Shown piece after piece: positions 54,990 through 56,858 of a stretch of 64,000 bases of DNA; position 1 is the stretch's first letter, and the number at the start of each line of letters is the position of its first letter. A program made the position numbers and the translations under genes. The stretch comes from Paenarthrobacter sp. GOM3 (GTDB lineage: Bacteria > Actinomycetota > Actinomycetes > Actinomycetales > Micrococcaceae), in assembly GCF_018215265.2 (NCBI RefSeq), contig NZ_CP136562.1:3534001-3598000 (forward strand), written 5' to 3'. Below the pieces are notes generated by a model. That model searched no databases, was not told where the DNA came from, and saw only the letters and a list, made by a program, of their open reading frames with translations.

Positions 54990-55066
<77 letters not shown>

Positions 55067-55120: not shown

Positions 55121-55162
55121 CAAAAAGAAACCCCCGGGGCCTCGCTCGTCACGCCCCGGGGG
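55121..55162 (-). terminator. Rho-independent terminator of the peptide precursor gene
   Basis: Stem CCCCCGGGGC (55131-55140) with GCCCCGGGGG (55153-55162) and a 12-nt loop. Reading leftward it is followed by TTTCTTTTTG, a good U-tract. It lies 19 bp beyond the peptide stop codon. Confidence 0.9.
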
Positions 55163-55181: not shown

Positions 55182-55397
55182 TTACATAGGATCCGGCCAG
55201 TTGCCAATGGACATCGGCGTGTACGTGGTGTCCGCTGACTTGGTCGGCGCCGCCACGCGCATGGGATCGGGCCAGTTGCCGATAGCACTTACCGTGCTGG
55301 AGTCTCCTGCCGAAGCAGCGGAGACGACTGCGGGAGCCGCGACTGCCAGCGACAGCGCGCCTGCCAAAGCCGCTGAAGCGATGATTTTCTTGAACAT
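55182..55397 (-). CDS. Secreted peptide-pheromone-like precursor with two IGNWPDPM repeats
   Basis: 71-residue precursor. Residues 1-30 are a textbook Sec signal peptide (Lys-Lys n-region, hydrophobic core ASAALAGALSLAVAAPAVV, likely AxA cleavage ASA|GD at 30/31). The remaining 41 residues contain IGNWPDPM at 39-46 and again at 64-71, where it forms the exact C-terminus; the connecting segment is MRVAAPTKSADTTYTPMS-like and unrelated. Start ATG has GGGGAAG at good spacing; promoter, 5' leader and terminator are all identifiable, so this is a real gene. It is divergent from an HTH-TPR regulator, which suggests a signal peptide and receptor pair. Alternatives: a small exported effector or antimicrobial. 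No known family is recognised. Confidence 0.85.
   Translation of the reverse strand: MFKKIIASAALAGALSLAVAAPAVVSAASAGDSSTVSAIGNWPDPMRVAAPTKSADTTYTPMSIGNWPDPM
55185..55208 (-). repeat. Peptide-coding repeat, C-terminal copy of IGNWPDPM
   Basis: Encodes IGNWPDPM followed directly by the TAA stop. Compared with the other copy, 3 of 24 bases differ, all silent third-position changes (Ile, first Pro, last Pro). Confidence 0.9.
55260..55283 (-). repeat. Peptide-coding repeat, internal copy of IGNWPDPM
   Basis: Encodes IGNWPDPM exactly 25 codons upstream of the C-terminal copy; preceded by Ser-Ala instead of Met-Ser and followed by Arg. Confidence 0.9.
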
Positions 55398-55455
55398 GGT
55401 ACTTCCCCAATGCGAGTCGGATTCGTTACGGAAATTGCGTGGTCCCTGTTGACAT

Positions 55456-55469
55456 ACATTGTAAAATGT
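55456..55469. promoter_or_regulatory. Inverted repeat overlapping the peptide promoter
   Basis: ACATTGTAAAATGT: 5-bp arms around GTAA. It covers the predicted -10 region of the leftward peptide promoter, so it is a candidate binding site for the divergent HTH regulator. Confidence 0.5.
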
Positions 55470-55488
55470 TTTCCACAGAGACTGTCAA
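55458..55488 (-). promoter_or_regulatory. Predicted promoter of the peptide precursor gene
   Basis: A perfect -35 TTGACA (minus strand, 55488-55483) with a -10 of TACAAT (55463-55458, 19-bp spacer) or TTTACA (55465-55460, 17-bp spacer). A leader of about 55 nt would precede the ATG at 55397. Confidence 0.6.
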
Positions 55489-55490
55489 GG

Positions 55491-55502
55491 TTTTGGTCAA
55501 AA
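55491..55502. promoter_or_regulatory. Second small inverted repeat in the divergent spacer
   Basis: TTTTGGTCAAAA, 5-bp arms around GT, 20 bp ahead of the regulator GTG. Could be an autoregulatory site; weak evidence. Confidence 0.3.
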
Positions 55503-55522
55503 GACACCTGTAGGAGGAACCC

Positions 55523-56797
55523 GTGGGAAACGGATTCGGCGAGAAGCTACGTGCCGAACGGCTCGAACGTGGGTTAACGCAGGCAGAGCTGGGCAAAAAC
55601 CTGTATTCGCCTAGCTACATTTCGCTCCTGGAGACCGGACGCCGGGAACCCACTGCCGAGGTCATCGAAGAGCTGGCACGGCGGCTGGAACTTGCCCCCA
55701 AGGCTTTGGAAGCGTGGAGCCAACCGGTTTCCGTCAGCGACGCCGAGTATGTCCTCGCCGGCCTCTACGCCCGGCAGGCATGGGACCTTCGCGACTACCA
55801 ACTCGCAGCCAGCCACGCGGCCACCGCAGCGCAGATCGCCCTTGAGGCCAAGAACAACAGCGCCTGGTGGAACATGACATACATGCAGGCCGAGTGTGTC
55901 ATGAAGCAAGGCCAACTCAAGGAATGCCAGCAGATTGTTGAGCATCTCCTGGAACACCCCATGGCCACCGAATCCGCAGGCCTGGGAGTGCGCGCCTGGC
56001 AGATGCTTGCCGCCGTGTGTCACGGACAAGGTCAGCTGGCCACCGCCGTCGAGCATGCAAAGCAAGCGGTCAAGCTGTGTGAGCAGCTGCCGAAAGGTTC
56101 CACCCTTATCATCGGTGCGCACCGCGCGCTGATCGGCGCACTCGCCGAAAGCGGCAAGCTGGACGAAGCATGGACGTACTGCCTGGCCATGATTGAGCAC
56201 ATGGACGAGCACTCCATGTCGCAACTGGCCGGCGAGGTCGCGTGGGTTGTGGGCAACGTTGCCTTCATGCGGCACGACTATGTGGAAGGCATCAAGCACC
56301 ACGAGCGTGCCGCCAAGCTGCTCTCCCCCGCTAACGACATCGAACTCTGGGCCCGGTTCAACAAAGCCTCCGCCGCAGTCCGGCTGTCCTCTGGGATCGT
56401 GGAACCGGAAACACTGTCCGCTATCGAACGCGCGGAACTGGCCCTGTCCATCGTGGGCGGCAACAAGACAGACCAGCTCGAAGTGGCTTTCATCCGGGCC
56501 CGCTGGCTCTACCTGACCGGCGACATCCTCGCTGCGGTGGAGAAACTGCGCGAAATTTACGCCGACCGCAAAGTCCTGGCCCGGCACACTGCAGGCGAGG
56601 TTTCGCTGCTGCTGGGCAAGTCCCTGAAAGCCGCAGGCGAAACCACCGAAGCACTGCATTATCTGGAAGAGGCCCAGCACGACTTCAGTGCTGCCGGAGC
56701 CTCGGACCGGGTTCAGCAGGCCATGGATGCGGTGCTGGAGATCCGGCTCGCCGAGCGCCGCGCCGCTGCAACACACCCGGAACATTCTCAGGCCTGA
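55523..56797 (+). CDS. XRE-HTH regulator with TPR-like C-terminal domain, candidate RRNPP-type peptide receptor
   Basis: 424 residues. N-terminal Cro/CI-type HTH (about 5-60): GEKLRAERLERGLTQAELGKNL, YSPSYISLLETGRREPTAEVIEELARRLEL. The rest is a continuous all-helical region with TPR-like pairs, e.g. ARQAWDLRDYQLAASHAATA, NSAWWNMTYMQAECVMKQGQLKECQQIVEHLL, GQGQLATAVEHAKQAVKL, ALIGALAESGKLDEAWTYCLAMI and KAAGETTEALHYLEEAQHDF. HTH plus about 8-9 TPR-like units in about 400 residues is the layout of RRNPP receptors, though those of Firmicutes are usually 280-420 residues with 5-9 TPRs. GTG at 55523 has a strong TAGGAGGA site. The 125-bp divergent spacer and peptide gene suggest an autocrine circuit. 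Confidence 0.85.
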   Translation: MGNGFGEKLRAERLERGLTQAELGKNLYSPSYISLLETGRREPTAEVIEELARRLELAPKALEAWSQPVSVSDAEYVLAGLYARQAWDLRDYQLAASHAATAAQIALEAKNNSAWWNMTYMQAECVMKQGQLKECQQIVEHLLEHPMATESAGLGVRAWQMLAAVCHGQGQLATAVEHAKQAVKLCEQLPKGSTLIIGAHRALIGALAESGKLDEAWTYCLAMIEHMDEHSMSQLAGEVAWVVGNVAFMRHDYVEGIKHHERAAKLLSPANDIELWARFNKASAAVRLSSGIVEPETLSAIERAELALSIVGGNKTDQLEVAFIRARWLYLTGDILAAVEKLREIYADRKVLARHTAGEVSLLLGKSLKAAGETTEALHYLEEAQHDFSAAGASDRVQQAMDAVLEIRLAERRAAATHPEHSQA

Positions 56798-56808: not shown

Positions 56809-56858
56809 AGTCGCAGTTAAGCGCGTTTTGAGGGGTCAAAACGCGCTTAACTGCGACT
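56809..56858. repeat. Perfect 23-bp inverted repeat between convergent genes
   Basis: Arms 56809-56831 and 56836-56858 are exact reverse complements with the 4-nt loop GGGG; the left arm begins AGTCGCAGTTAAGCGCG and ends TTTTGA. It sits 12 bp after the regulator stop and 14 bp before the purC stop. It lacks a U-tract in the usual place, but the length makes a very stable RNA hairpin on both strands, suited to bidirectional termination or to a dispersed palindrome family. Confidence 0.85.

Follow-up and report, generated by a model that had tools for sequence, protein, structure and literature searches.

Two genes that point away from each other in the genome of Paenarthrobacter sp. GOM3 raise the question of whether an actinobacterium can signal by a short secreted peptide that is read by a receptor in the cytoplasm. 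In the portions of the literature considered here, surveys treat RRNPP signalling, which works in this manner, as a matter of the Bacillota (Firmicutes) (PMC10075063; PMC9765709), and, according to one of the two, the signals typical of Actinomycetota are small molecules that enzymes make. We analysed the pair in a stretch of 64,000 nucleotides, hereafter the window, together with its counterparts in related genomes.

The proposed precursor and receptor, and the DNA between them

The precursor gene (55182..55397, minus strand, ATG start), taken from the list of open reading frames, encodes 71 residues, MFKK...SAIGNWPDPMRVAAPTKSADTTYTPMSIGNWPDPM as translated from the window. Its N-terminus, MFKKIIASAALAGALSLAVAAPAVVSAA, looks Sec-like on inspection and on a simple score of hydrophobicity and charge, and a probable Sec signal sequence covers about residues 1–28 (55314..55397, minus strand), with an estimated boundary. 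The octapeptide IGNWPDPM is read twice, at residues 39–46 (55260..55283, minus strand) and as the last eight residues (55185..55208, minus strand), and the DNA of the two copies differs at synonymous positions only. A terminator-like hairpin lies 3′ of the precursor (55127..55143, minus strand); one was found where 0.7 is expected by chance. A tRNA gene is located at 54990–55063, just past the precursor.

The receptor gene is divergent from the precursor and starts with a GTG preceded by AGGAGG (55523..56797, plus strand). The open reading frame, Pfam and a structure model describe a regulator of 424 residues with an XRE-type HTH domain at residues 4–65 (55532..55717, plus strand), where Pfam matches HTH_31 and HTH_3 at residues 5–64; TPR_12 is matched above the cut-off. 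The AlphaFold2 model is confident (mean pLDDT 89.5, pTM 0.78) and places behind the HTH a TPR superhelix of eight helix pairs and a last helix (residues 71–417; 55733..56773, plus strand). First helices of TPR pairs line the concave face of such a superhelix. Asn245 (codon 56255..56257, plus strand) and Asn280 (codon 56360..56362, plus strand) lie in pairs 5 and 6, respectively, each in the first helix of its pair, and are candidate peptide clamps. The sequence-only reading had described a Sec-type precursor of 71 residues with two IGNWPDPM copies, divergent from a 424-residue XRE-HTH/TPR regulator, and open reading frames and Pfam agree with it.

Between the two genes lies a conserved element, TTGACATACATTGTAAAATGT (55449..55469), which holds the palindrome ACATT-GTAA-AATGT and is a candidate operator or promoter part. 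Its consensus, TTGACANNNATTGTAAA, occurs between both genes without mismatch at all 80 of the named loci, which are close relatives of one another (the best 80 of 305), whereas each of 78 control windows has at least 4 mismatches; the pattern was derived from the alignment of the same 80 loci in which it was then counted. Forms related to TTGACANNNATTGTAAA were recognised by eye in more distant HTH pairs. The window site is the single place in this genome that matches TTGACANNNATTGTAAA without mismatch, and no other place matches with fewer than 2 mismatches (at 2 mismatches there are two places for the palindrome and one for TTGACANNNATTGTAAA). Because TTGACANNNATTGTAAA occurs only once in this form, the simplest reading is local autoregulation of the pair through the intergenic element. 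The TTGACA in the element may be a −35 element; a sigma-70-type consensus scan of the control region found no promoter.

Neither a protease gene nor an importer gene was seen at the window locus. The genome holds 11 SBP_bac_5 matches, and importers of the oligopeptide-permease type may exist in it. Between the receptor and purC, at 56810–56857, is a perfect inverted repeat with 22-bp arms; the arm recurs at six further places in the genome with 1–3 mismatches and is REP-like.

Pairing across relatives and variation of the peptide

A scan of genome contigs for relatives yielded 305 stretches, of which the best 80 were analysed. These named loci come from Paenarthrobacter, Arthrobacter and Pseudarthrobacter, the closest being that of Paenarthrobacter sp. 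AR 02 (99 %), and the precursor is present and open at every one of the 80. Searches with the receptor found matches in 104 of 197 genomes of its family (some of them to the HTH only) and, beyond the family, in 18 of 297 genomes of the order and 4 of 396 of the phylum, two of the latter four from the window's genus; since few candidates were scored in each genome (no more than 9 in the family, 5 in the phylum and 7 in the order search), the misses are soft. For pairing, 131 loci of the one family were sampled among the matches listed, leaving out those with E of 5e-11 or above, which were to the HTH or to short pieces, and 135 receptor ORFs were found therein.

Precursors were sought with a filter that accepts signal-like ORFs up to 160 aa long that contain W.?P and lie within 700 bp of the receptor. 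At the divergent upstream position 90 of the 135 receptor ORFs were positive, whereas the same filter at the three other positions of strand and side gave 2, 8 and 3 of 135. At least two of the downstream control hits are true precursors, belonging to tandem second pairs in L064 and L065. When a repeat of at least 5 residues with W and P was required, the divergent upstream position kept 56, against 0, 2 and 0 elsewhere (n = 135). With no W-P required, 82 receptor ORFs had a signal-like ATG ORF, the best of which contained W.?P in 78 cases; the other 53 of 135 had none. Two of the 90 positives were later set aside, L106, a false positive of the filter, and L086, which is doubtful. Classing was done on the 134 receptor rows of at least 250 aa, with the 46-aa piece L034 left out and the split L120 receptor counted as two rows. 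A divergent, signal-bearing W-P precursor accompanies 89 rows (88 by the filter, and L090, which is too long for it), a leaderless peptide sharing the W-P core accompanies 12 (11 loci), and 33 have none or a doubtful one (32 peptide-less, and L086).

Outside the family but within the order, three genomes of one other family also encode receptors, with W-P precursors at two of their four loci. One of these, at L171, carries TVGGSWPT three times, and the other, at L172, ends in DTWPA. No convincing precursor was seen at L154, L155 and L182; a 23-aa ORF ending in WP at L155 lies far from the receptor start and was judged by eye to be due to chance. Spread by phage or plasmid was rejected, as tblastn with the receptor gave no match in phage and plasmid collections at the limits used.

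The peptide core differs by clade, for instance IGNWPDPM, IGWWPN, VGDWPH, GNNNWPL and GGLWPY, and is conserved while linkers and copy number vary. Among the named loci (the best 80 of 305), 79 of 80 precursors are distinct, copy numbers range from 1 to 4, and the motif or a close variant of it forms the C-terminus of 77 of 80. The 88 precursors found by the filter carry 1–8 copies in HTH pairs and 1–4 in HTH-less pairs; 37 of 49 in HTH-less pairs end one residue past the W-P, and 18 of 39 in HTH pairs end three residues past it. Comparison of copies within precursors (285 pairs, 76 of them identical in DNA) gave a pS of 0.49 against a pN of 0.031, where pN is biased low by the picking of units through W.?P and both values are lowered by recent duplication; despite both biases, the contrast indicates that the core is kept. 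Core differences rise as receptor identity falls (Mantel r = −0.56 over 100 pairs; none of 1000 permutations was as low), a codivergence that shared descent alone could give. Covariation with the peptide did not differ between the first and second TPR helices (p = 0.32).

These results bear on several expectations from the sequence-only reading. That the octapeptide would be conserved among relatives is borne out for the core. That the small ORF would stand beside orthologous regulators holds at all of the best 80 of 305 loci but not throughout the family, with 33 of 134 rows lacking it or doubtful. Covariation of peptide and TPR pocket may be reflected in the codivergence, which shared descent alone could also give, but not in the test of first TPR helices. 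Matching pairs with different peptides in relatives point to a peptide language among these bacteria.

A relaxed scan followed by inspection by eye revealed the leaderless ORFs. At eight loci of one genus (L062, L063, L068, L069, L070, L074, L077 and L120), all with HTH receptors, a divergent ORF of 19–23 aa has no signal sequence; its last six residues are VGDWPD or VGNWPD, and the remainder varies. This conservation supports the view that the eight ORFs are real genes. Similar short leaderless ORFs of 16–32 aa were found at L054, L056 and L057, that of L057 standing alone, and none was seen at L061, L066 and L067, which share the receptor clade of the leaderless loci. The L120 receptor is split into two frames.

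Asn245 and Asn280 are both present in 89 of 89 receptors paired with a signal-bearing precursor. Among the peptide-less receptors, both are kept in 20 of 32, and 12 of 32 have lost one or the other to K, D, H or S: N245K at L043, L045 and L046; N245D at L089, L094 and L100; N280H at L097, L103, L106, L112 and L117; and N280S at L058. The receptor of L086, the locus with the doubtful precursor, has Ile at position 280. In the part of a study of RapF considered here, the protein binds the peptide backbone through a conserved Asn, whose substitution by Ala impairs binding (PMC3601957); by analogy, Asn245 and Asn280 may be counterparts of this residue (N227). The 20 peptide-less receptors with both Asn count against the reading as a peptide and receptor pair, as do the 33 rows with no peptide or a doubtful one. 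In genus g24, nine of ten loci (L037, L039, L047–L052 and L071) have no peptide, although their receptors sit next to purC and retain both Asn. A weak test for a precursor elsewhere in the g24 genomes gave, outside G143, weak matches only, the best at E 0.012 in G052. These receptors might listen to the peptides of others.

Relation to RRNPP systems, and the alternatives

The system has several features of the RRNPP class: receptors built on a TPR superhelix, some with an XRE HTH at the N-terminus; a small propeptide gene beside the receptor, signal-bearing or leaderless, with export as a prediction; and similarity of fold, as seen in the predicted model. By Foldseek and a second structural comparison, the model resembles PlcR, Rap, NprR and AimR, with modest TM-scores to PlcR and Rap, and MalT and eukaryotic TPR proteins score equal to or above the RRNPP proteins. 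Sequence gave no support for membership: no RRNPP-specific Pfam family is among the 15 families listed at E up to 1, and none of the 48 sequence matches in the PDB (E up to 0.1) is a chain named as RRNPP. The best reading is that the system is RRNPP-like and not a shown RRNPP homologue, with distant homology possible. The analogous RRNPP circuit proposed from the sequence alone is thereby upheld in layout, conservation and fold, but narrowed to RRNPP-like by the missing sequence match.

The closest parallel in layout is PlcR-PapR of the Bacillus cereus group, in which an XRE HTH and TPR regulator neighbours a small exported precursor that carries the signal at its C-terminus, and PlcR complexes are among the fold matches. 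The window pair differs in its divergent genes, two identical copies, W-P core and actinobacterial host. NprR and AimR, likewise HTH and TPR receptors of short imported peptides, match the receptor model by fold; the peptides and hosts of NprR-NprX and AimR-AimP are different. Rap proteins are TPR receptors without a DNA-binding HTH and act on response regulators or ComA. Rap-Phr, of Bacillus and its phages, is similar here in fold and in its small exported precursors, for which several pheromone copies per propeptide are known from the part of the source considered (PMC11343458), but the HTH-less receptors in our set adjoin GGDEF-EAL genes. The 11 leaderless loci recall Rgg-SHP and RopB-SIP of streptococci, where a short leaderless signal meets an intracellular receptor, as the portion of the article used describes for SIP (PMC6565748); those systems have Bacillota hosts, and no sequence match with the receptors here was found. 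A literature search of open-licence full texts, preprints excluded, in which titles and the beginnings of abstracts were considered, recognised no description of this system, and a search by exact peptide strings returned unrelated papers only.

Taken together, the two genes probably form an RRNPP-like pair of peptide signal and cytoplasmic receptor; we infer export, maturation, uptake, binding, output and density dependence. The precursor would be exported through Sec, and proteases would release one or more short peptides ending in ...GNWPDPM, which an oligopeptide permease could re-import. The peptide would then occupy the groove on the concave side of the TPR superhelix, where Asn245 and Asn280 would hold its backbone. 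Its binding would alter how the HTH engages DNA at the intergenic element common to both genes, with an effect on expression of the pair and perhaps of other genes.

Alternatively, the receptor may sense its own precursor or fragments of it inside the cell or during secretion, as a monitor of envelope secretion or proteolysis, and not other cells. The same genes and the same Asn pattern would be expected in that case, and the leaderless variants show that the signal sequence is missing from some lineages. Nevertheless, a signal-like sequence is retained in the 88 filter-found precursors and in L090, and a leaderless signal can still be secreted, as the part of the SIP-RopB article considered describes (PMC6565748). 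We therefore regard self-sensing as unlikely. Chance or an annotation artefact, for which nothing speaks except the small size of the ORF, has a negligible probability in view of the positional controls and the conservation.

The small protein may otherwise serve as an antimicrobial, envelope or surface effector, or be a modified peptide, with the regulator merely controlling it. Ribosomally made, modified peptides also carry several copies of one short core, which counts for this possibility, as do the ABC transporter genes upstream in the window. An ABC gene was matched beside 20 of 131 loci, but purC stands beside more, 49 of 131, including the nine peptide-less g24 loci; as the flanks reach only about 1.5 kb, absence of either neighbour means little. 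Moreover, no modification enzyme is among the eight neighbour proteins (representatives) scanned with Pfam, the core diverges together with the receptor, though shared descent may explain this, and the losses of Asn fall in peptide-less clades. An effector is thus quite improbable, even more so than self-sensing. Under the preferred RRNPP-like reading, peptide communication in common soil bacteria would be directly testable with synthetic octapeptides, and the peptide-less receptor clades would be natural controls.

Receptors without an HTH and their GGDEF-EAL neighbours

The sequence-only reading had named a single pair; this pair is confirmed, but the system is wider, with a second pair in the genome, HTH-less receptors and leaderless peptides. 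About half of the paired receptors have no HTH. The second receptor of this genome, the sole other match (43 % identity), is of this kind, with TPR and no HTH, and opposite to it (L002) is a divergent 56-aa ORF with a signal-like start and IGWWPN twice, the second copy C-terminal. This HTH-less pair lies between histidine kinase and GGDEF-EAL genes (L132:5652-10358; own genome C1:3437000-3453000), and the own-genome GGDEF-EAL ORF, taken from its longest-ORF start, overlaps the stop of the HTH-less receptor by 4 bp.

In the short flanks, a GGDEF-EAL gene is found at 35 of 48 HTH-less loci versus 0 of 83 HTH loci, the class being set by a receptor length of at least 395 aa and not by the HTH regular expression, which mislabels many peptide-less rows as HTH-less. 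Among 20 wider loci chosen for diversity, the same GGDEF-EAL protein cluster occurs in 19; at one locus of this set, L139, the receptor was missed by the gene caller. Other neighbour clusters, named by Pfam on representatives only, are a family 2 glycosyltransferase (7/20), CBM_5_12 (7/20), DUF7793 (9/20) and a histidine kinase (5/20). Three GGDEF-EAL proteins were scanned, and each matches both domains and HAMP, the latter above the cut-off in one.

In the HTH-less paralogues, including the one here, the TPR protein, once it has bound its peptide, probably targets the GGDEF-EAL protein encoded next to it and hence influences c-di-GMP, and the same contact may reach exopolysaccharide. The Micrococcales system is best read as having a DNA-binding branch and a c-di-GMP branch. 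We hold more tentatively, at slightly less than an even chance, that it is a receptor class of the Micrococcales' own, independent of or very distant from Bacillota RRNPP, with W-P signals diversified by clade and outputs through DNA and through GGDEF-EAL contact, c-di-GMP and exopolysaccharide. In one actinobacterial family there are about a hundred candidate peptide-receptor loci, whose peptides are clade-specific and one branch of which is tied to c-di-GMP genes.

Two loci carry two tandem HTH-less receptor and peptide pairs each, with different peptides: LIDDWPH and KVGNWPG at L064, and MIDNWPN and KVGNWPD at L065.
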